Below are positions 2,460 to 58,158 of a stretch of DNA of 64,000 nucleotides, in pieces. The stretch spans positions 1 through 64,000 of the forward strand of contig JAFTIR010000013.1 in the NCBI GenBank assembly GCA_017456765.1, in the 5' to 3' direction. A model generated the notes under the pieces. The model was given only the letters and a program-made list of their open reading frames with translations. It was not told the DNA's origin and did not search any database. Position numbers and translations under genes: made by a program. This DNA is from Clostridia bacterium (lineage in GTDB: Bacteria; Bacillota; Clostridia; Oscillospirales; CAG-382). The first letter of the stretch is position 1; each line of letters begins with the position of its first letter.

Positions 2460-3191
2460 CTACACCGCAAAGAAAATTTCATCATTTACAGCATATTTTT
2501 TTACACCGAAGTTTTTTTCAATTACATTTTTTTCGAGACATTCCTCTTTTCTTCCCGAAAAAACACATTTTCCGCCGTCAATTACAACAACATTGTCGGC
2601 GTACTTTATCGCTCTGCTAAGATTGTGAATTACACAAATAACCGTCTTTCCCTCGCAGCACATCCCTTTTGCCGCCGAGAGAAGAAGCGCCTCATGCTCT
2701 GCATCAAGATTTGAGGTAGGCTCGTCAAGAAGTAAGATGTGTGCGTCCTGACACAGATTCATGGCAAAGTAGCAGAGCTGTCTTTCTCCGCCCGAAACTT
2801 CACATGCCCGTCTTTGGGCAAGGTGGGAAATGCCCGCTTTCTCAAGTGCCCTGTCCACACGACTCTCGCGCTCAGCCTTCTCATCACGAAAGGCGCTTCG
2901 CCCGAAGGCACACATCTCACGCACCGTAAATGAGCTTTGCGTGGCATTCTGGTAAAGGCAGGATATTGTTTCTGCCCTCTCCTTGTCCGAAATGCTCTTT
3001 AAATCTCTGCCATCGCACACAATACTGCCCCCATACCCCTTTACACCCGATATGCAGTTTATGAGGGTAGATTTTCCCGAGCTGTTCTTTCCGATTACGG
3101 CATAGAATTTTCCTTCTTCAAATGAAAGGTTTATATTTTCAAGTACACATCTCTTTCCGTAATGGCAAAAGAGATTTTTTATTTCAAGCAT
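2460..3191 (-). CDS. FecE/FhuC-type ABC transporter ATPase
   Basis: This is the ATP-binding subunit (243 aa) of a metal-chelate importer, powering uptake through the FecCD-type permease encoded just upstream. Walker A is GKNSSGKST, the signature is VSGGERQLCYFAM, and Walker B is ILLLDEPTSNLD. The frame stays open to 3431, but that part lies inside the permease gene and reads as a shadow. The start chosen is the ATG at 3191 (MLEIKNLFCHYGKR), which overlaps the permease stop by 8 bp, as expected for translational coupling. It is the last gene of the reductase-transporter operon. The substrate (siderophore, heme or corrinoid) cannot be told from this subunit. Confidence 0.9.
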   Translation of the reverse strand: MLEIKNLFCHYGKRCVLENINLSFEEGKFYAVIGKNSSGKSTLINCISGVKGYGGSIVCDGRDLKSISDKERAETISCLYQNATQSSFTVREMCAFGRSAFRDEKAERESRVDRALEKAGISHLAQRRACEVSGGERQLCYFAMNLCQDAHILLLDEPTSNLDAEHEALLLSAAKGMCCEGKTVICVIHNLSRAIKYADNVVVIDGGKCVFSGRKEECLEKNVIEKNFGVKKYAVNDEIFFAV

Positions 3192-4185
3192 CTTTTCTCC
3201 CTCCCTTTGAAAGAAGTAAAAACAGGAAAAAGGGAGAACCTGAAAGTGCCATGAGAATACCTGCAGGTATTTCAGAGGGGGCTGCCATAATTCTTCCGAG
3301 AAAGTCCGACAGCACCACAAGAATAGAGCCGATAAGCGCAGAGGCGGGAATAAGAATTTTTGCATTCTCGGGTACAAATCTTCTTGCAATGTGGGGGGAC
3401 ATAAGTCCCGCAAAGCCCAAAAGTCCTGCAAAGCTTACGGCAGAGGAGGCAGAGGCAGAGGCTAAAAGCATTGCGAAAATCCTCACCCGAGGCACACAAA
3501 GCCCGAGGGAATGAGCCGTGTTGTCACCAAGCGAGAGAATGTCAAGCCTTTGTGAAAAAACGCATGACAGCACGAGTACAAACCCTACTGTAATTGCAGG
3601 AATCATCAGCTGTTCAAATTTTACTCCCGAAAGCGAGCCTACGGAAAATGCGTTATATGACACAAGCACATCCGTGTCAATAAGGGATATAAGGGAAATG
3701 CCCGCCGAAAGAATTGCACTCACGGCAAGACCTATAAGTATCACATTTGACTTTGAAACGCCAACCTTTCTTGAAAGCGCTGTAATAAAAGCAGTCGTGA
3801 GAAAAGCACCGCAAAAGGCAAAGAGCGGCACAAAAGCAAAGAGCGACGGAAACAGCCATATAGCAAGAATTACCGCAAAGCCCGCACCCGAATTTACACC
3901 CACAAGATTTGGGGATGCCATTCTGTTGCCCGTCACAATCTGAAGTATCGCGCCCGACATTCCAAGACCTGCCCCCGCAACAAGTGCCGACAGCAGCCTT
4001 GCAAGCCTTACGTTATAGATAATCACTCCGCCCACCGTTTCTCTTTTCACATCTGTAAGCGCAAAGAAAAATTCCCTTGTCGAAAGATGAGCCGAGCCGA
4101 AACGCAATGACAAAAGGCATAGCACAAAGAGTACTATGCCGCCTGACAAAAGAGAAATGATGTTTTTTGTCCTATTCTTTGCCAT
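3184..4185 (-). CDS. FecCD-family metal-chelate ABC permease
   Basis: A 333-residue, very hydrophobic protein with about ten membrane segments, the usual size and pattern of FecCD/BtuC permeases. Family landmarks are the GLGMSGAILQIVTGNRMASPNLVGVN stretch (residues about 72-98; given here only as the family's conserved N-terminal region) and the FAGLLGFAGLMSPHIARR coupling motif that contacts the ATPase. It overlaps the binding protein upstream by 14 bp and the ATPase downstream by 8 bp. It should form a homodimeric channel for an iron-siderophore, heme or cobalamin-like substrate. There is no paralogue beside it, consistent with a homodimer. Confidence 0.9.
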   Translation of the reverse strand: MAKNRTKNIISLLSGGIVLFVLCLLSLRFGSAHLSTREFFFALTDVKRETVGGVIIYNVRLARLLSALVAGAGLGMSGAILQIVTGNRMASPNLVGVNSGAGFAVILAIWLFPSLFAFVPLFAFCGAFLTTAFITALSRKVGVSKSNVILIGLAVSAILSAGISLISLIDTDVLVSYNAFSVGSLSGVKFEQLMIPAITVGFVLVLSCVFSQRLDILSLGDNTAHSLGLCVPRVRIFAMLLASASASSAVSFAGLLGFAGLMSPHIARRFVPENAKILIPASALIGSILVVLSDFLGRIMAAPSEIPAGILMALSGSPFFLFLLLSKGGRKDA

Positions 4186-5104
4186 ACAAAAGCTCCGCTA
4201 AAATTTTGTAAGCCTCGTCCCACCTGTCATTCGGCTTGTACTGAAACAGATTTTTGTCGAGGAATGTGTAGTTTTCGTTTTTTACGGCAGAGAGCATCTG
4301 CCATTCGTCCTGTTCGAGAAGCGACATCATATATTTCTTGGCCGCATCCTCATCTCCCATGGTGGAGAAGAAAATGTAGTCTGGGTTTTCGATAAGTATT
4401 TCTTCGGTAGAAAGCCCGTCAAGAAGAAGAGGCGCATTCTCTGCTATGTTGTAGGTGTTCATCTCGTAAAGCATACGGCAAACAAAACTGTTATCCTTTG
4501 TCTTTGCCTTTGTTGCCTTTGCACCCGAAGCACAGCGCACAAAAAGTATCTTTTTGGGCTCACCTTCCGGAATCTGTGACAAAACCTTTTCAATTCCGTT
4601 CTTTACCCTCACCACGTTTTGTCTATACCCTTCCTCATCCGAGAAAATGCCGCACAGTTCCCTCATTACCCTTTCGTAGTCCTCAAAGCTCTCAACCCTG
4701 AAAAGAGCCGCAGGTATGCCTGCCTCTGAAAGAAACCCTGCTGTTTTGTTATGCTCTGCAATGTCAACCGAGCCTATAACCAAATCGCACTGCTCGGCGA
4801 TAAGAAGCTCTGTGTTTATCTTCTTTCCTGCGCCCTCGTCGACAAGAAATGTACCCTCGTCCGCAAAGCCGCGCTCGATGCTTTCTCCCACCGTGACAGA
4901 AACGCTTCCTCCGGCAAGAAGAACCATTTGCGCATAGGACGAAAACAGCACCGCCACCTTTTTCGGCTTTTCACTCAGTGTTATTTCTTTTCCCGTATCG
5001 TCGGTAAAGGTGAAATATGTATCGTTGACTGCCTCTTGTTTTTTTGCACATGACGGAAAAATCAGGCACAGCAACACAAGAAACAAAAGAAATATTCTTT
5101 TCAT
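4172..5104 (-). CDS. Metal-chelate ABC substrate-binding lipoprotein
   Basis: A 310-residue extracytoplasmic lipoprotein. The signal peptide ends in a lipobox at FPSCAKK, so Cys is about residue 19. It is followed by a two-lobed type III (FepB/BtuF-like) binding fold with the typical opening TDDTGKEITLSEKPKKVAVL and a hinge helix. It should deliver a chelate to the FecCD permease. Its ATG overlaps the stop of the upstream reductase (ATGA at 5101-5104), so the four genes form one tightly coupled operon. The pairing with a siroheme-type enzyme suggests a tetrapyrrole or iron substrate, but that is inference. Confidence 0.88.
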   Translation of the reverse strand: MKRIFLLFLVLLCLIFPSCAKKQEAVNDTYFTFTDDTGKEITLSEKPKKVAVLFSSYAQMVLLAGGSVSVTVGESIERGFADEGTFLVDEGAGKKINTELLIAEQCDLVIGSVDIAEHNKTAGFLSEAGIPAALFRVESFEDYERVMRELCGIFSDEEGYRQNVVRVKNGIEKVLSQIPEGEPKKILFVRCASGAKATKAKTKDNSFVCRMLYEMNTYNIAENAPLLLDGLSTEEILIENPDYIFFSTMGDEDAAKKYMMSLLEQDEWQMLSAVKNENYTFLDKNLFQYKPNDRWDEAYKILAELLYGKE

Positions 5105-6015
5105 TTTGCAAGAATTTCGTCCTTTTTCTCTATCATTTCGCCCGAGGTGAGTATTCTTTCGGTTTCCTCAAAGCCAACTCTCTTTATGGTGTCGGCAAAG
5201 CGTTCTCCCGCCTCGCCGTAGAGCCTGAAGAACAGAATTGCGCTCTCGATGAGCTTCATTACCTCATCCTCCGATGCAAAAATCGTCTGCAAGGGTCTTC
5301 CCATTGCCGTCTTTTTGCCCCATCTTCCGCCAACATATACTCTGTAGCCTACATTGTACCCTTCGATAGCACCAAAGGGACATTTTCCGTCGCATCTGCC
5401 GCAACCGTTGCACTCAGGGCTTGTAATTTTGCCGTTTTCAACCCTTGCCGCCTTCACGGGACACGCCTTTTCCACCTGACAAACCTTGCATCCGCGGCAA
5501 ATTTCCGTGTTGAAAATCGGCTTTTTATGTCCGATAACGCCAAGGTCGTTAAGATCCGGCTTTACACAGTTGTTTGGACAGCCGCCAACGGCAATTTTGA
5601 ATTTGTGGGGCAGCTTTACCTCGTGGTAGCCCTTGTAGAATACATGATGTATCTTTTCTGAAAGTGAAAATGTATCTATAAGTCCGTACTGGCAGGTTGT
5701 ACCCTTGCAGGAAACAATGGGACGGACTTTCGGACCCGTACCGCCTATTTCAAGGTCGTGTTCACGAAGAAACTCTATAAGAGGTTCTATGTTTTCGTAG
5801 GGAATATGTTGAATTTCTATTGTCTGGCGCGTTGTAAGCCCTACTGCCGAGCCTGCATATTTTTTCGCCGCCTCTGCAATAACAGTGAGCTTGTCCGCAT
5901 CTATTCTGCCGTTAACGGTTAAAACTCTGCCGTTGAAGTGGCAATACGTTGTTTTGTCAATGAGAAATCCCATTCCTTTTACTTTTGCGATTTCTTCAGG
6001 GGTAGGCTTGTACAT
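5101..6015 (-). CDS. Siroheme/4Fe-4S sulfite (or nitrite) reductase-like protein
   Basis: The product (304 aa) resembles the AsrC-type and small sulfite reductases. Residues about 15-90 form the ferredoxin-like NiR/SiR half-domain, with a TTRQTIEIQ anion/heme-binding segment. C103, C108, C146 and C150 (SCKGTTC and GGCPNNC) are the expected siroheme-4Fe4S ligands. A two-cluster ferredoxin insert follows, with Cys at about 173, 176, 179, 185 and 202, 205, 208, 212. It should carry out multi-electron reduction of sulfite or a similar oxyanion in the cytoplasm. The start has a GAGGT site. No partner AsrA/AsrB is adjacent; instead it leads an operon with a metal-chelate ABC importer. Confidence 0.82.
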   Translation of the reverse strand: MYKPTPEEIAKVKGMGFLIDKTTYCHFNGRVLTVNGRIDADKLTVIAEAAKKYAGSAVGLTTRQTIEIQHIPYENIEPLIEFLREHDLEIGGTGPKVRPIVSCKGTTCQYGLIDTFSLSEKIHHVFYKGYHEVKLPHKFKIAVGGCPNNCVKPDLNDLGVIGHKKPIFNTEICRGCKVCQVEKACPVKAARVENGKITSPECNGCGRCDGKCPFGAIEGYNVGYRVYVGGRWGKKTAMGRPLQTIFASEDEVMKLIESAILFFRLYGEAGERFADTIKRVGFEETERILTSGEMIEKKDEILAK

Positions 6016-7407: not shown

Positions 7408-7543
7408 TACGCCCACCCCCTTTGCATCTCATCATATCATATAAAAGAGAGCTTTTCAAGAAAAAAATTAAACATTTTTCAAAAAAACAGGCGTATTTTT
7501 GAGCTTTCACAAAAAAACATTAAAAATATACAAAAAAATGATA

Positions 7544-7572
7544 TTTACATTGTTACCGCTTGCAGTTATAAT
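7544..7572 (+). promoter_or_regulatory. Promoter of the oxidoreductase pair
   Basis: TTTACA (7544-7549), a 17-bp spacer and a perfect TATAAT (7567-7572) lie 46 bp before the first oxidoreductase start. The AraC gene diverges from the same 200-bp gap, so activator sites are expected just upstream. Confidence 0.75.
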
Positions 7573-7617
7573 AGAACTGTAAATATGGGCAGAAGCCCAA
7601 AAAACGGAGGTAAAAAC

Positions 7618-8673
7618 ATGAAAGTTATAGCAATTATCGGTTGCGGAAGAATCGCAAGAAATGCACATCTTCCGGCGTTGTCTCAGCTTGACGACGTAAG
7701 AATCAAATACGGCTGTGACATTATCGAAGAAAAGGCAAAGAAATTACAGGAAGATTTCCCCAAGATTGAAAACGTAATCACAGACTACAACGTAGCACTG
7801 GCTGACCCCGAAATTGATGCAGTGTGGGTACTCACACCCAACTTTGCGCACTATACCGTAACAATGGATGCACTGCGTGCGGGAAAGCACGTTCTTTGCG
7901 AAAAGCCCATCACAGTAAACTATGCTCTTTCCAAGGAAATGAAACAAATGGCTGACAAAATGGGCAAGATGCTCAATATCGGTGTCTGCAACAGACACCA
8001 CGCTTCCGTTGAAAAGCTCTATGAAATGAACAAAAACGGAGAATTCGGCAACATCTACCACATTTACTGCTCCTTCAGGTCATGCCGCAGCATTCCCGGT
8101 CTTGGCGGCGACTTTACAACAAAGGCTGTTTCCGGAGGCGGCGCTCTTATCGACTGGGGCGTACACTTCCTTGACCTTATTCTCTATGTTCTCGGCGGTG
8201 CAAAGCTAAAGACCGTAACATGCGATACATATTGCGAAATGGCAAAGGATATGGCTTCCTACAAGTACAAGGGTATGTGGGCTGAGGACACAAAGAATTT
8301 AAACGGCACAAATGACGTTGATGACTTTGTAACAGGTTATGTAAGAACGGACAAGGCCTCCATTTCCATCAACGGTGCATGGGCGCAGAATCTCGACAAG
8401 GGCGAAATGTTCGTTGATTTCCTCGGCGACAAGAAGGGTGCAAGACTCGCTTACCAGGGCAAGATTGAAGTGTTTGACGGCGAAACTCTCGAAACAACTG
8501 CTCCGGAATATGACATTCCCAACCAGTACCTCGAAGAAAACAAGGCATTCCTCGAAAGCATCGACACGGGCGTTAAAACACGCGGCAACATAGACAACGT
8601 TCTTGAGAGTGCTCTTCTTCTTGACCTTCTCTATCAGTCGGCGGATGCGCATAAGGAAATTGTGGTGGAATAG
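7618..8673 (+). CDS. Gfo/Idh/MocA-family NAD(P)-dependent oxidoreductase
   Basis: A 351-residue dehydrogenase with an N-terminal Rossmann fold (IAIIGCGRIARNAHLPAL) and the family's catalytic-lysine motif in CEKPITVNY. The C-terminal alpha/beta domain carries GGGALIDWGVHFLDL, with the usual substrate-binding Asp/His. It should oxidise or reduce a sugar or cyclitol at one carbon. The start chosen is the ATG at 7618, after a clear GGAGG; an in-frame ATG at 7585 precedes that site and is unlikely. The next gene follows after 17 bp. The substrate is unknown, and an AraC regulator diverges upstream. Confidence 0.88.
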   Translation: MKVIAIIGCGRIARNAHLPALSQLDDVRIKYGCDIIEEKAKKLQEDFPKIENVITDYNVALADPEIDAVWVLTPNFAHYTVTMDALRAGKHVLCEKPITVNYALSKEMKQMADKMGKMLNIGVCNRHHASVEKLYEMNKNGEFGNIYHIYCSFRSCRSIPGLGGDFTTKAVSGGGALIDWGVHFLDLILYVLGGAKLKTVTCDTYCEMAKDMASYKYKGMWAEDTKNLNGTNDVDDFVTGYVRTDKASISINGAWAQNLDKGEMFVDFLGDKKGARLAYQGKIEVFDGETLETTAPEYDIPNQYLEENKAFLESIDTGVKTRGNIDNVLESALLLDLLYQSADAHKEIVVE

Positions 8674-19875: not shown

Positions 19876-21789
19876 TTACCATTCGCTGTTTCTTCCAACC
19901 GAAGACACGCTGAACCAATCAGCTTCTGCATCTTCTTCAACTACAACGTAGCTCATAGGATGAACAAGACTCTTTACATCTTCGTCAACAACAGTATCCT
20001 TGCCGGACTTACCTGTGTTGAGAACAAGCTCGTCATCTTCGTTGATGTAGTAGATAATGCTGTCGTTGACGATTACTGCACGCTTAACGTCTTCAGCAAT
20101 TGTTACAACCTTCTTGCCGTCAAACTTTGCAAGAGAATATACATCGTCCTCAGAGTTATAATCAGCTCCGAAATAGAACTTGCCGTTCTTGTTTGCCCAG
20201 ATGAAGTTGTAAACCTCTGCATCAATTTCGGTAGCTTCCTTGCCGCCTGTGTATACAGAGTATTCGTCGCTGTCATGCTTGATGAATACTGTTTCCTTGT
20301 TGAATGCTTCAGCATAATCTGTATAAACACTCATTACATCTTCAGCAATTGTTGTTCCCTTGCTAAAGTCGATGCCCTTCTTTGTAATTGCGTACTTGAT
20401 AAGCTCGCCCTTACCTTCGTCATCAACCTCTTCGATTGTATAGAAGCTGTCTTCTGTGTAATCGTATGTTACAAGCTCATCGTCTTCTTCGGGAATTTCG
20501 ATTTCAACAAACTTATCGTAGTCTGCACGAACATAGCTTGTGTACTTAACCTTATCATCGTCATATTCGGATGTAACAATGACCTTTTCGCCACTGTAGT
20601 AGGAATCACCGAAATCTTCAACGAGAAGCTTTGCCTTCTTGCCGTCTACATAGTAGAGGTTATATTCGTAATCGGAATAATAGCTGTCTTCGTCTTCCTT
20701 GATTTCCTTCTGTGTAACTGCGTAGAAGTGTCTGTTTTCCTTTTCGTCTTCTATCCAGTTTATATATACAACATCGTTATCAAGACCGCTTACTTCAACT
20801 TCCTCGCCTGTACCCTTCTGGTAGTAAAGATTGTCCTTCTTTACGTAGTAGAGAGCACTGTAGTTGCTGTCTACCCAGGAGTAATCATCAGCACCCGACA
20901 CGAGATCTTCTGCCTTGTCGTTCTTGCCTGTTCCGCAAAGGCTGATTGTATACTGTGTATCGTATGTTTCTTCGTCCTGCTTTGTTTCAACAAGTCTTAT
21001 CTTCTTGCCGTTTTCGCTGAAGCCATAGTAGAATTCGCCCTTCTTGGCGATTTCATTGTGGATTTTATCAACGCCGGTTGAATAGATAACTTCACCGTCA
21101 TCGTTCTTGTAAACAACAGCCTTGTAGTCGCTTGAAACTGTGTACTCAACTACGTCCTTACCCATCTTCATTTCATTATTGCCGTTTCTGCCACACTTGT
21201 AAAGTGTACCGTTCTTTAAATAGAAGACTGTCTTTCCGTCGGGAGTAATCTGATATTCGGAAACACCCTTTGCAATCTGTGTGTTGGCTTCGGGATTCTT
21301 CTTGGATACTGCTCTGTAATAGAGGTCAAATTCGCCGCCGTCGGGATCCATACCGAAGAATATGTACTTACCGTCAGCTGTAATCTGAATTGAACCGCCA
21401 AGATCTTCTATGTCTGCTACAACAATGCCTTCCTTCTTGCCGGGCATAAGGAACTTTCCTTCATCGTCTGTTGAATAAACTAAAGGAAGAGCCTTAGGGT
21501 TAATTGTCTTTCCGCCGAAGCAGGACTTAAGACCGGATATTGCAAGAATTGCAACAACCACAATCAAAGCAATAACAATGATCTTCTTCAAGAGACCCTT
21601 ATCAGCCTTCTTTACTGCTGCTGCCGCCTGAGCAACTGCTTCGCTTCCTGCTGTAGCTACAGACTGAACCACGTTTTCCTTTGCAGGTTCTTCTGCCGCA
21701 GGAGCAGCCTGTTCTTCAACCTTTGCGCCACATACGTTGCAGAACTTTGCGTCATCTGCGAGCTCGTTCTGACAATTTAAACATTTCAT
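19876..21789 (-). CDS. Zinc-ribbon membrane protein with beta-propeller-like extracellular region
   Basis: A 637-residue protein. Residues 1-25 form a double-Cys zinc ribbon (CLNCQNELADDAKFCNVCG). A low-complexity Ala-rich linker and one membrane segment (about 68-88, KIIVIALIVVVAILAISGL) follow. The remaining 540 residues are acidic and Tyr-rich, with repeated blade-like units such as ITADGKYIFFG, ITPDGKTVFYL and YYVKKDNLYYQ, suggesting a TolB/DUF5050-like beta-propeller. The start chosen is the ATG at 21789, eight bases after GGAG. Its role is unknown; it could sense or scaffold at the cell surface. Confidence 0.75.
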   Translation of the reverse strand: MKCLNCQNELADDAKFCNVCGAKVEEQAAPAAEEPAKENVVQSVATAGSEAVAQAAAAVKKADKGLLKKIIVIALIVVVAILAISGLKSCFGGKTINPKALPLVYSTDDEGKFLMPGKKEGIVVADIEDLGGSIQITADGKYIFFGMDPDGGEFDLYYRAVSKKNPEANTQIAKGVSEYQITPDGKTVFYLKNGTLYKCGRNGNNEMKMGKDVVEYTVSSDYKAVVYKNDDGEVIYSTGVDKIHNEIAKKGEFYYGFSENGKKIRLVETKQDEETYDTQYTISLCGTGKNDKAEDLVSGADDYSWVDSNYSALYYVKKDNLYYQKGTGEEVEVSGLDNDVVYINWIEDEKENRHFYAVTQKEIKEDEDSYYSDYEYNLYYVDGKKAKLLVEDFGDSYYSGEKVIVTSEYDDDKVKYTSYVRADYDKFVEIEIPEEDDELVTYDYTEDSFYTIEEVDDEGKGELIKYAITKKGIDFSKGTTIAEDVMSVYTDYAEAFNKETVFIKHDSDEYSVYTGGKEATEIDAEVYNFIWANKNGKFYFGADYNSEDDVYSLAKFDGKKVVTIAEDVKRAVIVNDSIIYYINEDDELVLNTGKSGKDTVVDEDVKSLVHPMSYVVVEEDAEADWFSVSSVGRNSEW

Positions 21790-22419: not shown

Positions 22420-22771
22420 GGGGGCGTAAAGGTTTCGACGGGGATTTTGAAGTACGCTAAGCGAGCAGGAATGCAGGCGGCCTTTATAGGACTGCACATT
22501 AAATATAAACGCTAACAATAATAGATTAGCTTACGCTGCCTAAGTGCGCGTCATCGACCCGGGGAGTACCGCGGCCCCGGCTTCGGTGTCACATCAGCGG
22601 TGAACGTGAACATTTCTAAGCTTTGCGATTTGTCATGACCTTATGAAGCTACTCGTTTTCACAGTTTGTTTGTTGTCAGTGATTAAGGGGAATTTTAACA
22701 GCAAACTACGCTCGTAGAAAGGTGTATGAATGGGTTTTCGGACGCGAGTTCGACTCTCGCCGCCTCCACCA
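22420..22771 (+). ncRNA. ssrA: Transfer-messenger RNA (tmRNA)
   Basis: The 5' end GGGGGCGTAAAGGTTTCGAC and the 3' end GTTCGACTCTCGCCGCCTCC plus ACCA pair as the tRNA-like acceptor, with a T-arm and encoded CCA. The mRNA-like part begins at GCTAACAATAAT and encodes ANNNRLAYAA-stop, so with the resume alanine the tag ends in a typical ClpXP degron. It rescues stalled ribosomes and tags nascent chains for ClpXP. Its 3' end also serves as an attachment-site-like sequence, copied at 31.90 and 34.45 kb. Confidence 0.97.
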
Positions 22772-23054: not shown

Positions 23055-23083
23055 TTTACTTTTAAAGTACTTGGTGCTATAAT
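23055..23083 (+). promoter_or_regulatory. Promoter of the riboswitch-controlled corrinoid operon
   Basis: TTTACT (23055-23060), a 17-bp spacer and TATAAT (23078-23083). Transcription would begin near 23090, just before the riboswitch. Confidence 0.7.
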
Positions 23084-23111
23084 ACCCATATAATTTAATA
23101 TCCACACAAAG

Positions 23112-23292
23112 TGTCGTCCGTACCGCAGAGAAAAAGGTACGGTCGGTGAAAAGGGAACGCGGTGAGAATCCGCGACGATACCAGTCGCTGTATGCATTCA
23201 AGAAATAAACAACGGCGAAAGCCGGTCATTGGGAAACTGAGAAGGCTTGTTTATTTCGCTTGAGAATGTAAGTCAGAAGACCTGCTTTGATA
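23112..23292 (+). promoter_or_regulatory. Cobalamin riboswitch
   Basis: The conserved blocks of the cobalamin aptamer appear in order: CGGTGAAAAGGGAA, CGCGGTGAGAATCCGCG, ACGATACCAGTCGCTGTATG, GCCGGTCATTGGGAAACTGA and the B12-box-like AAGTCAGAAGACCTGC near 23270-23285. A terminator follows at 23430-23463, so control is probably transcriptional, with expression when cobalamin is scarce. It precedes the surface protein and ECF genes. Confidence 0.9.
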
Positions 23293-23427
23293 CTTTTTCC
23301 GTACGTGATTTTTCATAGGAAGAGGTTTTCTGTTCGGCGCTGAACTTTGCTGGTAAAAAAACGAAGTTCTCAGGGCTTTCTTTGTTATTGTCTTTTTGCC
23401 AAAACGGAATGTGGTGTACGGGAAAAC

Positions 23428-23466
23428 TGCCGTAGTAACTTGATTGTTACTGCGGTTTTTTGTTTT
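23428..23466 (+). terminator. Riboswitch expression-platform terminator
   Basis: CCGTAGTAAC (23430-23439) pairs with GTTACTGCGG (23446-23455), followed by TTTTTTG. It sits after the aptamer and before the first gene. Confidence 0.8.
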
Positions 23467-23492
23467 GTCCCGATTTTTGGAGGTGATCGCCT

Positions 23493-23531
23493 ATGTCCCG
23501 GTATTGGCATAGAAATAAAAACAAAAATTAG
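23493..23531 (+). CDS. Possible 12-codon leader peptide
   Basis: A very strong GGAGGTGATC site (23479-23488) precedes ATG and a short frame encoding MSRYWHRNKNKN, ending in TAG 15 bp before the first surface-protein gene. It lies after the riboswitch terminator and has its own ribosome binding site. It might couple translation to the next gene, or be fortuitous. Confidence 0.35.
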   Translation: MSRYWHRNKNKN

Positions 23532-23546
23532 AAAGGAAAATTAAAA

Positions 23547-26354
23547 ATGAATCGCACAAAATTTTTATCACTGTTTCTTTGTTTGATTATGCTGTTTGGC
23601 ATATTTCCGATTTCATCGGCGCCGATACCTGTAATGGTTAATGATTCAGCTTTTGACTTTGAGGTTGGTGCTTTGTTGGCCGATGAAGAGGGCGATGTTG
23701 AACAAAATGATGTTTCAGATGTTTTTAGCATAATCAGTGAAGGCATAGGACTTTCTGCAGCATATCTTGGTGATGAGCTTGAAGAATTTCATCGTAATGG
23801 TTCAGTTGCCTATGGCCTTGAGTGGCATGTTATTTCTCTGCTCAGAGCCGGAAAGACAATTGATGATGAAATACTTCTTGAATACTACAATTCATTGGTT
23901 GAAACTGTTAAAGGGTGGACTGTTGAAACAACTCCCACAAATATTGAAAGATGCGCTCTTGCAATATCGGCTATGGATAAAGACATCACAGATGTAGACG
24001 GCGTAAATTTAGCAGAGCTCATTTACAACAACACTGCGCTTGAAACGGGATCCAATAAACTGGTTTTTGCACTTCTTGCCCTTGACGCAGCAGGTGTAGA
24101 AATACCTGAAAATGCGCTTTGGAGCAGAGATGCAATTATTACCGAGCTTTTAAAGTACCAAACATCAGACGGAGCCTTTGGCCTTGCTTTAGATAACCTT
24201 GTTTCTGATGTTGATATGACTGCTATGTGTATTCAGTCGTTAGCACCCTATACAGGATTTGAAAACGTAAATGATGCTGTAAATGATGCGGTTGAATACC
24301 TTAAAAGAACTGCTTCCGAAGAATTTGATTACTTAAATAATGCATACTCAACAGCCCAGGTTTTGTTGGCACTTTCGTGTCTTGGAATCGATGTTACAGA
24401 TTCTGACAGTGGTTTTGGAAACGGGGAGGATGAAAACATTGTTACTGCTCTTGGAAAATACAAGAGTGAAAACACAAACGGATATATCAGTGAAAACGGT
24501 GTTCTTTCTTCATCTGCAACATATCAGGTTATGCAGGCGTATGATGCATACAGAAAAGCATTCAAGGAGAACCTTTCCTACTGGGACTTTTCCGTAAAAG
24601 GACAGATATATGATGATGGCGGAGAAAACGAAGGAGAAGCTGATAACGATGAACAAGAAGCAGCTTCGGCAAACGTTTATGTTACTTTGGTTTCTGATGC
24701 AAGTGTTGTTACAGACAAAAACGGAGAATATGTAGCTGCAGCCAAAGTTACAGTTGCAGACCTTGACAAAAACGGCATACATACAGTTGATGAGGTACTG
24801 TATGCTGCACACGAAGCCTACTACGATGGTGGTGCGCAAGAAGGATATGCTTCGCAAAATACAGCACATGGCTTGTCAGTTGCAAAGCTTTGGGGCAAGG
24901 GTAGCCTTGAAGCACCTACATCGTGCGGATACTACCTTAATAACAATAGCTGTTGGAGTCTTGCCGATGAAGTAAAAGAAGGCGATTATATTGTTGCTTT
25001 TAATTACTATGATACAATCGGATGGAGCGATTCTTATGCTTATTTTGATGTAAATACTACAGAGGTTAATAAAGGCAAGACAGTTACTTTGACCTTGAAC
25101 TGCCTTGGATATGATGCCTCATGGAATATTGTTTCATCACCCTGTAAGGGAGCAAATGTGGAAATTCTTGGAAGCAACAACAGTGCACAGAAGGTATTAA
25201 CTACAAATAAAAACGGAAAGGTAAAGATTAACTTTCCGAAATCAGCGAAAGCCGGAGATTATTATGTGGTTGCATGCAAAGATGATAACAGCATTGTTCC
25301 GTGCGTTTGCAGAATAACCGTTAAGGATACAAATAATACTGTAGGTTCAGGCACTGCCAAGGACATTAAGGTTTATATCAAGATTTCAGATCCCGAGGGT
25401 GAAACATACCTGAAAAAAGTGTCGTATTCGGTTAAAAAAGGAACGACAGCTTTCGAACTTCTCGAAAAAACCGGGCTTGATATTGATGTTTCTCGCAGCG
25501 TATACGGAATGTATGTTTCGGGAATTGAAGATCTAGCGGAATTTGATGAGGGAGAAGGAAGCGGATGGATGTATCGTGTAAACAGAAAGTTTCCGAGCAT
25601 TTCTTCGTCTATGTATGCTCTTTCCAAAGGAGATTATGTTGAATGGCTTTATACAAGGGACTTTGGTGAAGACTTGGGACAATCAAAATCTTCAGGTGTT
25701 TCTTCGTCAAAATCAGATAAAGAAGACGTCGAGGAAGAAATAACAGATGTTCCGCAAAATACCGACAAAACACAGGAAGAAGCGCAGAAGAATGTTTTCG
25801 GTGATACAACATTTGCAGATGTGAAATCAGATAATTGGTACTACGATTCGGTAAAATATGTGTATGAAAATAATCTCATGCAAGGCACGGATAACGGATT
25901 TGAGCCGGACAGCAATATGTCAAGAGCAATGCTTGTAACGGTTCTCTACAGAATGGATAATGGTACCAAGAGCGAATACACACATCTTTTCAGTGATGTT
26001 TCCAAAGAAAAGTGGTATGCTGATGCTGTATCATGGGCAGTTTCAAATGGTATTATAAAGGGTGTTACCGAAACTGAATTTGCGCCTGACAGTGATGTGT
26101 CAAGGGAACAGATGGCTCTTATTATGTATCGTTTTGCCAAAATGAAGGGCTATGATGTAAACGGCACGGAAGATGTTTCGGCATTTTCCGACGTTGATAA
26201 CGTAAGCGAGTGGGCAATCGATGCCGTAAAGTGGGCAAAAAATCATGAACTTATAAATGGTACCGATAAATTCTCTTTGTCCCCCAAAGCTTCAGCAACA
26301 AGAGCACAGATAGCAACAATTATTATGCGTTTTTGCGAAAACCTGGCAAAATAA
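23547..26354 (+). CDS. S-layer-anchored intrinsic-factor/transcobalamin-like surface protein
   Basis: A 935-residue secreted protein. A signal peptide covers residues 1-25. An alpha/alpha-toroid (prenyltransferase/squalene-cyclase-like repeats such as YQTSDGAFGLALDNLVSDVD) spans about 60-341, a beta domain about 375-505, and an Ig-like region about 510-590. A DUF4430 domain spans about 605-711 (GSGWMYRVNRKFPSISSSMY, then GDYVEWLYTRDFGEDLG). Three SLH repeats occupy 755-935. Animal intrinsic factor and transcobalamin combine the same toroid with a C-terminal domain of the DUF4430 type. With a cobalamin riboswitch upstream and an ECF importer downstream, it should capture corrinoids at the cell surface. 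Direct binding is not shown. Confidence 0.85.
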   Translation: MNRTKFLSLFLCLIMLFGIFPISSAPIPVMVNDSAFDFEVGALLADEEGDVEQNDVSDVFSIISEGIGLSAAYLGDELEEFHRNGSVAYGLEWHVISLLRAGKTIDDEILLEYYNSLVETVKGWTVETTPTNIERCALAISAMDKDITDVDGVNLAELIYNNTALETGSNKLVFALLALDAAGVEIPENALWSRDAIITELLKYQTSDGAFGLALDNLVSDVDMTAMCIQSLAPYTGFENVNDAVNDAVEYLKRTASEEFDYLNNAYSTAQVLLALSCLGIDVTDSDSGFGNGEDENIVTALGKYKSENTNGYISENGVLSSSATYQVMQAYDAYRKAFKENLSYWDFSVKGQIYDDGGENEGEADNDEQEAASANVYVTLVSDASVVTDKNGEYVAAAKVTVADLDKNGIHTVDEVLYAAHEAYYDGGAQEGYASQNTAHGLSVAKLWGKGSLEAPTSCGYYLNNNSCWSLADEVKEGDYIVAFNYYDTIGWSDSYAYFDVNTTEVNKGKTVTLTLNCLGYDASWNIVSSPCKGANVEILGSNNSAQKVLTTNKNGKVKINFPKSAKAGDYYVVACKDDNSIVPCVCRITVKDTNNTVGSGTAKDIKVYIKISDPEGETYLKKVSYSVKKGTTAFELLEKTGLDIDVSRSVYGMYVSGIEDLAEFDEGEGSGWMYRVNRKFPSISSSMYALSKGDYVEWLYTRDFGEDLGQSKSSGVSSSKSDKEDVEEEITDVPQNTDKTQEEAQKNVFGDTTFADVKSDNWYYDSVKYVYENNLMQGTDNGFEPDSNMSRAMLVTVLYRMDNGTKSEYTHLFSDVSKEKWYADAVSWAVSNGIIKGVTETEFAPDSDVSREQMALIMYRFAKMKGYDVNGTEDVSAFSDVDNVSEWAIDAVKWAKNHELINGTDKFSLSPKASATRAQIATIIMRFCENLAK

Positions 26355-26374
26355 ATCTTATTTTAATGGCATAG

Positions 26375-26400
26375 GACAGCAGAAGCAATCTTCTGCTGTC
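26375..26400 (+). other. Intercistronic hairpin
   Basis: GACAGCAGAAG and CTTCTGCTGTC form a perfect 11-bp stem with a CAAT loop but no T-run. It is more likely an mRNA-stabilising or processing element than a terminator. Confidence 0.5.
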
Positions 26401-26426
26401 TGTATTCGATATAAATCGGGAGCGTA

Positions 26427-27983
26427 ATGATGAAAAGAATAATAAGCGTATTTTTGTCTTTGATAGTGGTTTTTGGGATATCGGCAGAGGCTGTTGAAAA
26501 TTATTCGCAAAAAGTTGACAATCTTACATTGACGGTTGGTAGTTTTTTATTTGAAACGGTAAAAGAAGCGGTGCCAAACTCAATCGGCGGCGAGTGGTCG
26601 GTTGTCGGACTTTCAAGAAGCGATGTTGATATACCCGAAAAATATTTTGAAACCTACTATAAAACAGCAGAAAAATATGTAAAAGATAAAAATGGTGTGC
26701 TCAGTAAAAACAAGTACACCGAGTATTCGAGGGTTGTAATTGCCCTTTGTTCCATCGGCAAAAATCCCGAAAACGTTTCGGGTTACAATCTCATTGCTCC
26801 GCTTCTTGATTATGACAAGGTTATAAAGCAGGGGCTTAACGGACCAGTATGGGCGCTTATTGCACTTGATGCGGCAGAGTATAACGATGACGAAATAAGA
26901 ACGAAATACATAGACCTTATTCTTTCCCGACAGCTTCCCTCGGGAGGCTGGGCACTTAACAGTTCGGTGCAAGAAGCAGATGTTGATATCACCGCAATGG
27001 TGCTGACGGCACTTTCCTCATATATGGATAAAGTAAAAGTAAAAACTGCCGTAGATAAGGGACTTTCGTATCTTTCTGGCATTCAAAACATTGACGGAAG
27101 CTTTGGCGAATACTCCGAAAGCACATCTCAGGTAATTGTTGCTCTTTCAAGTCTTGGTATATCCCAAAAAGACTCAAGGTTTTTCAAGAACGGAAAGACT
27201 GCCGTTGATGCGCTTATGAATTTTCACATAAAAGGAAAAGGCTTCAAGCACGCAAAATCCGACAAAGAATCCAACCTTATGTCAACAGAGCAAGGTTTTT
27301 ATGCCCTTGTAAGTCTGAAACGTTTTGAAGATGGAAAGAGTAAGCTTTTCGATATGAGCGACGGTATTTCTATATCAGGTAATAATGCGGGCGGTAACAG
27401 AATCGGGATAAAGTACCCGAATAAAACCTTCAGCGATATTAAGAATCACAAGTATAAGTCTGAAATTGAGGCACTCTGTCAAAGAGGCATAATAAACGGA
27501 ATGACTGAAAATACCTTCTCGCCTGATTTCACCATGACAAGAGCAGAGTTTGCCACAATTACCGTAAGAGTCCTCGGACTTGAAGCAAAAGGAATAGATG
27601 TCTTTTCTGATGTGAAAAAAACTGACTGGTACTACGGTTTTGTGGGTACTGCTTATGATTACAGTATAATCAAGGGTGTGTCTGAAAACCGATTCAACCC
27701 AAACGGCACAATTACCCGTGAAGAAGCGGCGGTCATGGTAAAGAGAAGTGCAAAAATCTGCGGTATTGATAAAACTTATAACGAAAGTGCCGTAAGAAAT
27801 GTGCTGTCGCAGTTTACCGACTACAAGACCGTTTCCACTTGGGCAAAGGAAGGACTTGCTTTTTGTTATGACAAAGGAATTCTTGACGATTCGGAAATTG
27901 AAATAAATCCTAAAGAAGCGGTAAAACGAGGAGAAATTGCGTATATGCTCTATAACTTATTGAAAGAGGCAAATCGTACATGA
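26427..27983 (+). CDS. S-layer-anchored alpha/alpha-toroid surface protein
   Basis: A 518-residue secreted protein. A signal peptide is followed by a toroid of repeated helical pairs (about 45-300), including ILSRQLPSGGWALNSSVQEA and YLSGIQNIDGSFGEYSESTS. Three SLH repeats (about 335-518) bind cell-wall polymer. It has no DUF4430 domain of its own, but one is encoded as a separate lipoprotein directly downstream, overlapping by 4 bp. Toroid and beta domain may therefore act as two chains, like the two domains of intrinsic factor. There are two adjacent ATGs (26427 and 26430). The corrinoid-binding role is inferred from context and architecture. Confidence 0.8.
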   Translation: MMKRIISVFLSLIVVFGISAEAVENYSQKVDNLTLTVGSFLFETVKEAVPNSIGGEWSVVGLSRSDVDIPEKYFETYYKTAEKYVKDKNGVLSKNKYTEYSRVVIALCSIGKNPENVSGYNLIAPLLDYDKVIKQGLNGPVWALIALDAAEYNDDEIRTKYIDLILSRQLPSGGWALNSSVQEADVDITAMVLTALSSYMDKVKVKTAVDKGLSYLSGIQNIDGSFGEYSESTSQVIVALSSLGISQKDSRFFKNGKTAVDALMNFHIKGKGFKHAKSDKESNLMSTEQGFYALVSLKRFEDGKSKLFDMSDGISISGNNAGGNRIGIKYPNKTFSDIKNHKYKSEIEALCQRGIINGMTENTFSPDFTMTRAEFATITVRVLGLEAKGIDVFSDVKKTDWYYGFVGTAYDYSIIKGVSENRFNPNGTITREEAAVMVKRSAKICGIDKTYNESAVRNVLSQFTDYKTVSTWAKEGLAFCYDKGILDDSEIEINPKEAVKRGEIAYMLYNLLKEANRT

Positions 27984-28555
27984 AAAGAATAACAGTTTTA
28001 TTTTTAACTTTACTTGTAATATTTACTTTAACATCCTGTAATGACAATACAGAGCCTGTACCTGTAGAAGTTCCCGCGGGTAAACCCGAGCCTGTCAATG
28101 CAGAGGAGACAGTAATAACAGATAAAGAGCTTACCTGTACTCTCTCGGTAAGATGCGATACAATCCTTGATAATATGTCCGATTTTGACAAAGACAAGAC
28201 AGACATTGTACCTTTTGACGGTGTAATCCTTGGTGAAACAGAGGTTGTATTCTACGAGGGAGAAACAGTGTTCAACCTTCTTCGCCGTGAAATGAAGAAA
28301 AACGGTATACATATGGAGTTCAACGAAGTACCGATGTACGAAAGCGCCTACATTGAGGGTATTGCAAACATCTATGAATTTGACTGCGGTGAGCTGTCTG
28401 GTTGGATGTACAAGGTCAATGATTGGTTTCCCAACTACGGCTGTTCACGTTACAAGCTGAAGGAACACGACAAGGTAGAATGGATTTACACCTGCGACCT
28501 TGGCAGAGACATCGGCACAGACTACTCACAAAGAAACGGAAAAGACAATGAATGA
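27980..28555 (+). CDS. DUF4430 (transcobalamin C-terminal-like) lipoprotein
   Basis: A 191-residue lipoprotein with a lipobox ending at LTSC (Cys about 20). After a short linker, the DUF4430 domain (about 50-180) carries the hallmark GELSGWMYKVNDWFPNYGCS and KVEWIYTCDLGRDIG. It would sit on the outer face of the membrane. There it could pass corrinoid from the S-layer toroid protein to the ECF transporter encoded next. The overlap with both neighbours (ATGA upstream, 8 bp downstream) indicates coupled translation. Confidence 0.82.
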   Translation: MKRITVLFLTLLVIFTLTSCNDNTEPVPVEVPAGKPEPVNAEETVITDKELTCTLSVRCDTILDNMSDFDKDKTDIVPFDGVILGETEVVFYEGETVFNLLRREMKKNGIHMEFNEVPMYESAYIEGIANIYEFDCGELSGWMYKVNDWFPNYGCSRYKLKEHDKVEWIYTCDLGRDIGTDYSQRNGKDNE

Positions 28556-29423
28556 ATTTAAGATGTATCACCCATTGGTGAATTTTTCATACTTTGCGTA
28601 TGTCTTAGGTCTTGCCTGTACAGGGATGCATCCGCTGATGCTTGCTTCATCGCTGTTTTGCTCTTTTTTATATATGTGTATTATAAACGGCAAAAAGGCA
28701 CTTCACAGCCTTGCGTTTCTGCTTCCCGCAATTATTCTGACTTCTCTTATCAATCCTCTTTTCAACCACGAGGGAATGACAATACTCGGGTATCTGCCTG
28801 ACGGAAATCCGCTAACCTCGGAAAGCATAATCTACGGACTTTGTGCCGCCGCAAGTCTTGTGTCGGTGCTGTGCTTTTTCTCCTGTTTCAGCTCTGTTAT
28901 GACAAGCGATAAATTTATGTACCTGTTTGGCAAAATAATACCGTCGCTGTCACTTATTCTTTCCATGACACTCCGATTTGTTCCACTGTTTTCTGAAAGA
29001 CTGAAAAAGACAGCGGAAGTTCAGAAGTGCATCGGTAAGGGACTTGACGAGAAGGGTGTTTTCAGGAAAATCAAAAACGCCCTGCGAATACTTTCGATAA
29101 CCGTAACGTGGGCACTTGAAAATGCAATTGATACAGCCGACAGTATGAAAGCAAGGGGCTACGGAACGGGAAAAAGAACATCCTTTTCCAACTACCGCCT
29201 TGAAAAGCGTGACATAGCAATGCTTCTGTACATACTGTTTCTCGGCACATATGTAATTATTGGAAATGTTTCGGGACAGATGGATTTTTCCTTTTATCCT
29301 GTGATAAAGTCCACGCCGATTACGAGGTATTCAATCAGCGTTTTTATCAGCTACTTTTTACTATGTATGACACCTGTAATAATTGAACTATGGGAGGTGA
29401 GAAGATGGAAATATTTAAGGTAG
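28548..29423 (+). CDS. ECF transporter T component (EcfT)
   Basis: A 291-residue membrane protein of the EcfT/CbiQ family, which couples the ATPases to the substrate-binding S component. It has five to six membrane segments and the coupling-helix Ala-Arg-Gly motif, seen as DSMKARGYGTGKRTSF near residue 205. The start chosen is the ATG at 28548; the longer frame from 28500 lies inside the lipoprotein gene. It is followed by the fused ATPase-S gene, overlapping its start by 19 bp. Confidence 0.88.
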   Translation: MNEFKMYHPLVNFSYFAYVLGLACTGMHPLMLASSLFCSFLYMCIINGKKALHSLAFLLPAIILTSLINPLFNHEGMTILGYLPDGNPLTSESIIYGLCAAASLVSVLCFFSCFSSVMTSDKFMYLFGKIIPSLSLILSMTLRFVPLFSERLKKTAEVQKCIGKGLDEKGVFRKIKNALRILSITVTWALENAIDTADSMKARGYGTGKRTSFSNYRLEKRDIAMLLYILFLGTYVIIGNVSGQMDFSFYPVIKSTPITRYSISVFISYFLLCMTPVIIELWEVRRWKYLR

Positions 29424-31789
29424 AGAATCTGAGCTTTGCTTATCCCGAAAGTGAAAAAAACGCTGTTGACAGTGTAAGTTTCACCATAAACGACGGCGAG
29501 TTAATAACCCTTTGCGGAAAATCGGGATGCGGTAAAACAACTCTTCTCCGTCTTCTCAAAAGCTCTCTTTCACCTGAAGGCAAAATAAGCGGAAATATTA
29601 CATATCTCGGCAGAAATCTCCGTGAGCCTTCACCGAGAGAGGACGCACAAAACATAGGCTTTGTTTTCCAGAATCCCGAGTTTCAGCTGTGCTGTGATAA
29701 GGTGTGGCACGAGCTTGCCTTCGGTCTTGAAAGCCTCGGATTTTCTGAAGATGAAATACGTCTTCGTGTTTCCGAAACATCCTCCTTTTTCGGCATTTCT
29801 GACCTGTTTCACAAAAAAGTAAGCGAGCTGTCTGGCGGACAGAAACAGCTTGTATGTCTTGCATCTGTTATGGTAATGAAACCGAAAGTGTTAATCCTTG
29901 ACGAGCCGACCTCAAGCCTTGACCCGATATCAGCAAAGCACTTTATTGAAGCCGTAAAACGTGTAAACGACGAGATGGGTGTTACCGTCATAATGTCGGA
30001 GCAACGGTTAAATGAAGTACTTCCCATATCCGACAGAGTTATTGTTATGAATGACGGCAGAATATTTGCTGACGGAAGTGTAAGAGATATTGCAAATACA
30101 CTTTTTGAAGAAAGGCACGAAATGTTTTCGGCGTTCCCGCCGCAGATGAGAATATATGCAAGTATTGAGAATGGCAGTGACTATCCCATATCAGTTAAAG
30201 ACGGTAAGACGTGGCTTACAGAGTTTTCACAAAATCACACCCTTTATCCCGAAAGAATAAAAGCCGACACACAGCCCGACACCACAAAAAAAGCAGTTAA
30301 TCTTTGCGAAGTCCATTTCAGATACGAAAAGAATTCAGGGGGCGTGCTGAAAGGCATAAGTCTTACCGCATACAAAGGCGAAATACTTTCAATCCTCGGC
30401 TCGAACGGTGTGGGAAAATCGACGCTGCTTTCGGTAATTTCAGGTGTCCGCAAAGGATATTGCGGAAAGGTAAAAACTGACGGCATAATATCTTATATGC
30501 CGCAGGATGTGACAAGCCTGTTTGTCAAAGATACTGTAAGAACTGACCTTTTTGAAATCACAAGGAACGAAAACGCCGTTATGAAAACAGCCGAGCTTTG
30601 TGACATTCTGAACCTTCTTGATAAGCACCCCTATGACCTGTCGGGCGGTGAAAAGCAACGTGCGGCACTTTGCAAGGTACTGCTTACAAATCCCGAAATT
30701 CTCCTTCTTGACGAACCGACAAAGGGTATGGATGCTCATTTCAAAGAAAACTTCGGAAAGCTCCTACACAGGCTTAAAAATGACGGCATAACAATTATAA
30801 ATGTGTCCCACGACATAGAGTTTTGCGCTTCCTTTTCCGACAGGTGCGCTCTTATGTTTGACGGTAAAATTTCATCTGTCGTAACGTCGAAAAGCTTTTT
30901 TACAAAGATGAACTATTACACCACAGACACCGTACGAATGGCAAATAATATTCTTCCCACGGCAGTAACGGTAAATGATGCAATTTCTGCTTTGGGCGGT
31001 AAGAATTTTGAGTCTGAAAAGAATGACAACGATGAGTCAAACGGCAATAATTTACCGCCGATAACCAAAAGAGAAAAGGGCTCAAAGGGGTTCACCTTAA
31101 AGTCCTTATTACCGCTTATTTTTGTATTGCTTGCCGTTCCGTTTACTGTTTATTTCGGCATAAAGCACCTTTCTGACAGGCAGTATTATCTTGTAAGCGG
31201 TATTGTAATTGCAGAAATACTTTTACCGTTTTTACTTATGTTTGAAAGACGAAAGCCAAAGGCAAGAGAAATTGTAACGCTCTCAGTTCTCTCTGCAATA
31301 TGCGTTGCAGGAAGAAGCATATTCTTTATGGTACCCCAGTTCAAGCCTATGGCGGCAATCATCATAATTTCCGGTGCTTGTCTTGGGTATGAATCGGGAA
31401 TGATTGTGGGTGCAGTATCTGCATTCGTTTCAAACCTTTTCTTCGGGCAAGGTCCGTGGACTGTGTGGCAGATGACGGCATTCGCACTTATCGGTCTTGT
31501 TTCGGGACTTGTATTCGATTCTTGTAAGGTAAAAAAATCAAAGACGGCCTTATGTATCTTCGGCTTCTTTGCAACATTCCTCATTTACGGCGGAATACTG
31601 AATCCCGCATCGGTGATTATGATGAACCCCGAGCCTTCGGCAAAGCTTTTGCTTTCTTCGTTTGTCGCAGGTTTTCCCTTTGACCTTATACATTCGCTGT
31701 CAACATTTGTATTTCTGCTTGTAATGGCAGAGGCGTTTGTCGGGAAAATTGAGAGGGTAAAGATCAAGTATGGGCTTATGACTGATTAG
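29405..31789 (+). CDS. Fused ECF transporter: two ATPase domains plus S component in one chain
   Basis: A 794-residue protein combining three ECF subunits. The first ABC domain (about 1-225) has GKSGCGKTTLLR, LSGGQKQLVCLAS and LILDEPTSSLD. The second (about 295-500) has GSNGVGKSTLLS, LSGGEKQRAALCK and LLLDEPTKGMD. The last 230 residues form a six-helix S component with the motif AGFPFDLIHSLSTFVF. A separate EcfT completes the transporter. The riboswitch and transcobalamin-like neighbours point to cobalamin or another corrinoid. The start chosen is the second ATG (29405), just after GGAGGTGAGAAG. A similar S motif occurs in the gene at 58155. Confidence 0.88.
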   Translation: MEIFKVENLSFAYPESEKNAVDSVSFTINDGELITLCGKSGCGKTTLLRLLKSSLSPEGKISGNITYLGRNLREPSPREDAQNIGFVFQNPEFQLCCDKVWHELAFGLESLGFSEDEIRLRVSETSSFFGISDLFHKKVSELSGGQKQLVCLASVMVMKPKVLILDEPTSSLDPISAKHFIEAVKRVNDEMGVTVIMSEQRLNEVLPISDRVIVMNDGRIFADGSVRDIANTLFEERHEMFSAFPPQMRIYASIENGSDYPISVKDGKTWLTEFSQNHTLYPERIKADTQPDTTKKAVNLCEVHFRYEKNSGGVLKGISLTAYKGEILSILGSNGVGKSTLLSVISGVRKGYCGKVKTDGIISYMPQDVTSLFVKDTVRTDLFEITRNENAVMKTAELCDILNLLDKHPYDLSGGEKQRAALCKVLLTNPEILLLDEPTKGMDAHFKENFGKLLHRLKNDGITIINVSHDIEFCASFSDRCALMFDGKISSVVTSKSFFTKMNYYTTDTVRMANNILPTAVTVNDAISALGGKNFESEKNDNDESNGNNLPPITKREKGSKGFTLKSLLPLIFVLLAVPFTVYFGIKHLSDRQYYLVSGIVIAEILLPFLLMFERRKPKAREIVTLSVLSAICVAGRSIFFMVPQFKPMAAIIIISGACLGYESGMIVGAVSAFVSNLFFGQGPWTVWQMTAFALIGLVSGLVFDSCKVKKSKTALCIFGFFATFLIYGGILNPASVIMMNPEPSAKLLLSSFVAGFPFDLIHSLSTFVFLLVMAEAFVGKIERVKIKYGLMTD

Positions 31790-57738: not shown

Positions 57739-58158
57739 ATGAAAAAGAAAATTTTAGGCATTGCCGCCATTGTTATTGTCATCGCGGCACTTCTCGGCGT
57801 TTATTACGCCTTCAGAGAACAGCCAAAAAACCCAAATCTCGGTCCGTCCTCTGACGGTGATGTATCCATAAAGGGCAAAAATGTCACCATTGAGGTAATT
57901 GACGACGAGAACAACTCTGTAACATATTCACTTACAACCCACGCCGAATATCTTGAGGGTGCCATGAATGAAGCAGAGGGACTTACATATGAGGCAAAGG
58001 ACGGCATGGTAATGACGGTAAACGGCAAGCGTGCCGACTATAATCTTGACGGTGCTTTCTGGGGATTTTATGTTAATGGAAAATTCTGCAACTACGGATT
58101 TGCCGAACAGCCTGTAAACGACGGGGACGAGTTCCGCATTGAATACACAAAGGCATGA
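57739..58158 (+). CDS. Membrane-anchored DUF4430 (transcobalamin C-terminal-like) protein
   Basis: A 139-residue protein with one N-terminal membrane anchor (about 4-24) and an extracellular DUF4430 domain (about 45-139), marked by AFWGFYVNGKFCNYGFAEQP and GDEFRIEYTKA. It overlaps the following ECF S gene by 4 bp. Its surface position and coupling to an S component suggest it presents a small ligand to that S component, like the larger DUF4430 proteins near 24-28 kb. No riboswitch was seen upstream, so the ligand may be a corrinoid or another cofactor. Confidence 0.78.
   Translation: MKKKILGIAAIVIVIAALLGVYYAFREQPKNPNLGPSSDGDVSIKGKNVTIEVIDDENNSVTYSLTTHAEYLEGAMNEAEGLTYEAKDGMVMTVNGKRADYNLDGAFWGFYVNGKFCNYGFAEQPVNDGDEFRIEYTKA

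Follow-up and report, generated by a model that had tools for sequence, protein, structure and literature searches.

Vitamin B12 is contested among gut microbes and between microbes and their host. Gut bacteria of the genus Bacteroides capture it ahead of their B12 importer by means of surface binders of the BtuG/BtuH type, which have folds other than those described below and belong to an outer-membrane TonB/BtuB route. The animal B12 carriers intrinsic factor (IF), transcobalamin (TC) and haptocorrin (HC) are built of two parts, first an alpha/alpha toroid and then a beta domain, and the C-terminal domain of the transcobalamins has been reported as a DUF4430 domain (PMC4350170). For import, the closest described system is the energy-coupling factor (ECF) transporter ECF-CbrT of Lactobacillus delbrueckii (Protein Data Bank (PDB) entry 6FNP), which comprises EcfT, two EcfA subunits and the S-component CbrT, for which binding and transport of cobalamin and cobinamide have been demonstrated (PMC5997447). 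Finally, a DUF4430 gene adjoining rtpR is mentioned for Lacticaseibacillus rhamnosus, where a SEED-type annotation, “additional lipoprotein component of putative cobalamin ECF transporter”, has been given to a small lipoprotein (PMC9963975); this is an annotation alone, with no toroid or S-layer proteins described. A lipoprotein of cobalamin ECF transporters (as an annotation) and the link between TC and DUF4430 (as a published result) are thus already known, while no description of toroid-bearing S-layer capture proteins, or of the present operon as a system, was found in the open-access literature, a scope that makes this absence weak. The subject here is a window of 64,000 nucleotides (the whole stretch analysed, positions 1 to 64,000 of the forward strand of contig JAFTIR010000013.1, assembly GCA_017456765.1) from a Clostridia bacterium of the Oscillospirales (CAG-382), and within it an operon that quite probably constitutes a vitamin B12 (cobamide/corrinoid) scavenging system of a Gram-positive bacterium, combining capture at the S-layer, relay and ECF import.

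The operon (Table 1) consists of five co-directional, closely packed genes at 23547-31789, the first two separated by 72 bp and the rest overlapping by 4, 11 and 34 bp in turn. Upstream lies a cobalamin riboswitch, called by cmscan against Rfam at 76.2 bits (E 5.5e-17), well above the gathering score of 31.5; the match spans the full RF00174 model (1-189) and is the only one in the whole 1.8-Mb assembly. On its 3' side, at 23429-23456, a stem of 11 pairs is followed by TTTTTT, the folding energy of the region being -20.2 kcal/mol (z -3.2), and this intrinsic terminator is the probable expression platform of the riboswitch. An earlier reading made from the sequence alone (the sequence-only reading) had proposed just such an aptamer and terminator ahead of five overlapping or adjacent genes, encoding two secreted toroid proteins with S-layer homology (SLH) repeats, one of them with its own DUF4430 domain, then a DUF4430 lipoprotein, an EcfT and a fused EcfA-EcfA-S protein, and the Rfam, Pfam, phmmer, signal-peptide and coordinate evidence agrees with it.

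In the fused protein, Pfam recognises two ABC_tran ATPase stretches and an ECF S domain (ECF ATPase models match it at 4e-92, yet slightly below the NCBIfam cut-offs), and the S domain, residues 595-799, has CbrT of L. delbrueckii (6fnp_A, E 4.9e-9) as its sole PDB match below 0.05. Since CbrT is a demonstrated cobalamin and cobinamide S-component, the importer is, as judged from its sequence, a CbrT-type cobalamin ECF system in which EcfA, EcfA and S are fused. It differs from that of L. delbrueckii in having these three in one chain, and in having a dedicated operon, surface capture proteins and a riboswitch. It might be argued instead that the operon is merely B12-regulated and that its substrate is a different metal or tetrapyrrole, such as cobalt or heme: its EcfT is a member of the CbiQ family of cobalt transport, cobalamin riboswitches often control cobalt importers (PMC3766115), and ECF systems that scavenge heme are on record (PMC7299338). 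This is very unlikely given the nearness of the S domain to CbrT, the transcobalamin-like folds of the surface proteins described below, and the fact that CbiD was not found in the assembly (89% complete), so that the bacterium would not be expected to require cobalt for making corrin. CobA/BtuR was likewise unmatched there, and the sole protein with a B12-binding domain is a MetH-like protein of 791 aa. This is probably a gut bacterium without vitamin B12 synthesis of its own, and the combination of one RF00174 riboswitch, one B12 enzyme and no CbiD found fits a B12 scavenger.

A likeness to the animal carriers is seen in the 191-aa lipoprotein, in which a signal peptide and an LTSC lipobox precede a DUF4430 domain (PF14478, 3.2e-18). 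Its AlphaFold2 (AF2) model, for which 61 natural sequences were used, reaches a pLDDT above 90 in the core, and when it was compared by Foldseek with 350,542 PDB chains, ranks 1-14 were all TC, IF or HC beta domains (1.4e-6, for 5no0, to 2.4e-5). Re-alignment by VIA gave Z scores of 11-13 to these proteins, the next beta-grasp fold reaching 7.5; apart from them, the top VIA group contains just RUMGNA_00854 of Ruminococcus gnavus (3u7z), a bacterial protein that shares the beta-domain fold and was deposited as a putative metal-binding protein. Searched against the PDB, the DUF4430 profile has transcobalamin-2 as its sole match up to E 10 (E 0.93). The lipid anchor is not a general property of such proteins: among their relatives a simple pattern finds a lipobox in just 6 of 79, and nearly all of the 24 N-termini that were read have a membrane helix in its place, so the idea of the lipobox as a shared feature was dropped.

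The two larger proteins would supply the surface-bound part of the system. Each has three SLH repeats (PF00395; 1e-32 in the 935-aa protein, which also matches the S-layer protein Sap in the PDB at 3.7e-13, and 1.4e-32 in the 518-aa protein). SLH domains bind a wall polymer that is modified by CsaB, which SLH anchoring needs; a signal peptide, three SLH repeats and a genome that encodes CsaB, the marks of an S-layer protein, are all found here. The toroid of the 518-aa protein is recognised by Pfam (Prenyltrans, 5.1e-6), and that of the 935-aa protein, which falls below the Pfam cut-off, is homologous to it (phmmer 2e-17 to 2e-18). The DUF4430 domain of the 935-aa protein was found at 5.1e-13, and at 7e-14 in a second search. 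The sequence-only reading had described this protein as toroid, DUF4430 and SLH; all three are present, and to them must be added a middle beta domain and an Ig-like domain. An AF2 model of residues 61-720 (pLDDT 84) has only TC, HC and IF at Foldseek ranks 1-15 (down to 5.5e-10), aligned over the toroid and the domain next to it, and the VIA alignment to TC takes in model residues 1-429. In the animal B12 carriers, too, the toroid comes first and the beta domain second. Thus for both the 935-aa and the 191-aa protein, a structural comparison with intrinsic factor of the kind the sequence-only reading had suggested returned the animal carriers as the best PDB matches. For the middle domain the description as transcobalamin-beta-like is made by structure alone, because HHalign gives a probability of only 0.6% for its alignment with DUF4430; sequence homology between the two is therefore unsupported. 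The same middle domain also occurs in relatives as stand-alone genes of ~260-280 aa on the 5' side of toroid-DUF4430 genes (e.g. G012:C8:151701-152309).

The resemblance to the animal carriers is nevertheless partial: the bacterial proteins are anchored to the S-layer or the membrane, their domains are split over several chains or duplicated, Ig and SLH domains are added, and the toroid lacks a match to PF01122, as discussed below.

A further body of evidence comes from other genomes. When the genomes of 84,980 species of bacteria and archaea were scanned with the DUF4430 domain alone as query, at least 575 relatives were found; the counts that follow rest on the best 80 loci, which come from several families of Clostridia and from Paenibacillus (class Bacilli), with cultured species among them. 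Because only DUF4430 was used as the query, the neighbouring genes constitute independent evidence. Where there was room to look upstream, a toroid gene is present in 64 of 67 loci and a toroid-SLH gene in 62 of 67, while EcfT, EcfAA and CbrT lie downstream in 48 of the 60 with room on that side. With our own nucleotide profile, 36 of 55 testable loci showed a cobalamin riboswitch no more than 1.3 kb from where the operon starts; reversed-sequence controls gave zero matches to the profile, and Rfam independently confirms the riboswitches in a sample of the relatives' loci. Close relatives without the SLH versions encode, directly 5' of EcfT-EcfAA-CbrT, a single protein of ~530-600 aa in which a two-helix membrane hairpin joins a secreted toroid to a DUF4430 domain at the C-terminus, and this fusion is the strongest sign that toroid and DUF4430 work together. 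Culturable organisms such as Flavonifractor plautii, Sporobacter termitidis and Paenibacillus are among those that have the operon.

Other relatives carry several of these domains in one chain. Two loci (L041, 7672-9348, and L120, 2459-9436) have several DUF4430 domains and several toroids per chain (three of each in L120), an arrangement that suggests multivalent capture. In Paenibacillus plantarum (L102) each strand bears a cobalamin riboswitch, at 7481-7677 (+) and 20124-20322 (-), one before a 547-aa toroid-SLH gene and the other before a 2061-aa multi-DUF4430 toroid-SLH gene.

These neighbourhoods also bear on a more serious alternative, namely that the operon does encode a B12 ECF importer, that corrinoid is handled in it by the DUF4430 lipoprotein and CbrT alone, and that the toroid-SLH proteins have some other surface role such as cell-wall scaffolding or the release of corrinoid from host or bacterial binders. 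The toroid is a common fold, nearest by sequence to squalene cyclases; conservation is much stronger for the DUF4430 of the operon than for its toroids; and a widespread second arrangement pairs DUF4430 with CbrT without any toroid. One such pair lies in the window itself (57739-58682), where a short DUF4430 gene overlaps a solitary CbrT-like gene by 4 bp, with no ECF module of its own and no riboswitch match up to E 1; it looks like the annotated lipoprotein of L. rhamnosus mentioned above, and a short DUF4430 gene overlaps or abuts a solitary CbrT-like gene in 14 of 20 further relatives' loci examined. Against this must be set the single chains of toroid and DUF4430 beside the same ECF genes in several relatives, the near-constant presence of toroid-SLH genes in the best loci, and the fact that TC and IF rank first structurally for the toroid together with its neighbouring domain, and on this evidence such a separate role for the toroids seems rather unlikely.

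Table 1 Features of the operon, its leader and the second DUF4430-CbrT locus (window coordinates).
Feature	Position	Strand	Basis
Promoter-like site TTTACT-17-TATAAT, extended -10	23055..23083	+	consensus scan
Cobalamin riboswitch aptamer RF00174	23092..23303	+	cmscan
Intrinsic terminator, probable riboswitch expression platform	23429..23462	+	11-pair stem + T run; fold z -3.2
935-aa secreted S-layer protein: signal peptide, toroid, beta domain 1, Ig-like, DUF4430, 3 SLH	23547..26354	+	Pfam; AF2; Foldseek
Alpha/alpha toroid of 935-aa protein	23727..24581	+	phmmer homology; AF2 model residues 1-282, TC/IF and terpene-cyclase fold
Middle domain of 935-aa protein, transcobalamin-beta-like in structure only	24666..25013	+	VIA alignment to TC
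DUF4430 domain of 935-aa protein	25440..25655	+	PF14478
Three SLH repeats of 935-aa protein	25782..26351	+	PF00395; PDB Sap
518-aa secreted S-layer protein: signal peptide, toroid, 3 SLH	26427..27983	+	Pfam
191-aa DUF4430 lipoprotein, lipobox LTSC, transcobalamin-beta-domain fold	27980..28555	+	PF14478; AF2; Foldseek; VIA
EcfT transmembrane coupling protein	28545..29423	+	PF02361 CbiQ 1.4e-8
Fused EcfA-EcfA-S; CbrT-like S domain from about 31175	29390..31789	+	ABC_tran x2, ECF S-component; PDB 6fnp_A
Second DUF4430 protein, 139 aa, membrane-anchored	57739..58158	+	PF14478 4.4e-9
Second, solitary CbrT-like S-component, 175 aa	58155..58682	+	PDB 6fnp_A 2.1e-9

Several findings weigh against the reading of the operon as a complete B12 capture and import system. 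Over both domains the model of the 935-aa protein differs from TC by an rmsd of 22 A, so that the placement of toroid and beta domain is not that of a closed sandwich and is not confidently predicted, and for this multidomain chain the AF2 pTM is 0.50, without a confident toroid-beta interface. The toroids do not match PF01122 (Eukaryotic cobalamin-binding protein) in Pfam searches at E up to 1 and 10, and TC is absent from the PDB matches of the toroid profile, so that neither search tied the toroid to animal TC by sequence. In structure the toroid resembles terpene cyclases no less closely (VIA Z 22 for that of the 935-aa protein), and in sequence clearly more so, its profile matching squalene-hopene cyclases in the PDB at 2.5e-19. 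These last two figures could also be taken to mean that the toroid proteins act outside the cell as enzymes of the terpene or prenyl type and were merely swept into the operon, an idea that is scarcely credible for proteins that are secreted and S-layer-bound and in which the catalytic DXDD motif of the cyclases is lost (nearly all of 101 toroids have DXD followed by I, V, L or M, and the fourth D is present in just 1), so that terpene-cyclase function was rejected. Also to be counted are the 19 of 55 testable loci that lack a profile riboswitch within 1.3 kb (some have one farther off), and the incompleteness of the assembly, which at just 89% makes absent genes weak evidence. Lastly, a FecCD-type ABC importer at 2460-5104, which is not under cobalamin riboswitch control, could be another B12 route. 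It forms part of a row of genes at 2460-6015 encoding a FecCD permease, an ABC ATPase, a periplasmic-binding protein and a sulphite-reductase-like Fe-S protein, whose substrate may be iron or B12.

With these reservations, the B12 scavenging system might work as follows. When B12 is scarce, the riboswitch would let transcription through the terminator (antitermination) and the operon would be expressed. The two secreted proteins, held on the cell wall by their SLH repeats, would capture corrinoid with their toroids and, in one of the two chains, transcobalamin-beta-like domains; the membrane-anchored DUF4430 protein would then take it over, possibly closing a two-domain clamp with a toroid, and pass it to the CbrT-like S domain, whereupon the EcfT/EcfA-EcfA motor would drive its import, chiefly to supply MetH. 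Regulation and import rest on established families; for capture and relay we infer the steps from the folds, the fusions and the order of the genes. Corrinoid is the proposed ligand of the surface proteins, and the geometry of the clamp and the sequence of transfers are likewise proposals. The sequence-only reading had also envisaged the display of transcobalamin-like proteins on the S-layer followed by ECF import, for which the folds, the CbrT-like S domain, the conserved gene order and the fusions all speak; passage from S-layer to lipoprotein to CbrT and a sandwich mode of binding are inferences, and the toroids may or may not share ancestry with the animal proteins beyond the fold.

The operon is in any case a concrete, widespread and riboswitch-controlled candidate for the concentration of B12 at the surface of Gram-positive bacteria, which have no outer membrane, and it makes the origin of the architecture of animal IF and TC testable. 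The stronger proposition, that the S-layer proteins of Clostridia and Paenibacillus are true homologues of IF and TC, with a toroid-beta clamp, a relay to CbrT and an ancestry shared with the animal carriers, is put forward tentatively, the balance of evidence being somewhat short of even. If it were true, this bacterial capture system would be an ancestor of the animal B12 carriers or have a common ancestor with them, and gut bacteria would be competing with their host by means of the type of B12 binder that the host itself employs.

The leader of the operon has some further features of its own. The promoter-like site listed in Table 1 agrees with the consensus at 10 of 12 positions, which is about the chance expectation for the region. 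Between the terminator and the 935-aa gene there is a short open reading frame, MSRYWHRNKNKN (23493-23531), with a strong ribosome-binding site, which is possibly a leader peptide, and directly 5' of the operon lies a tmRNA gene at 22420-22771 (164.8 bits).

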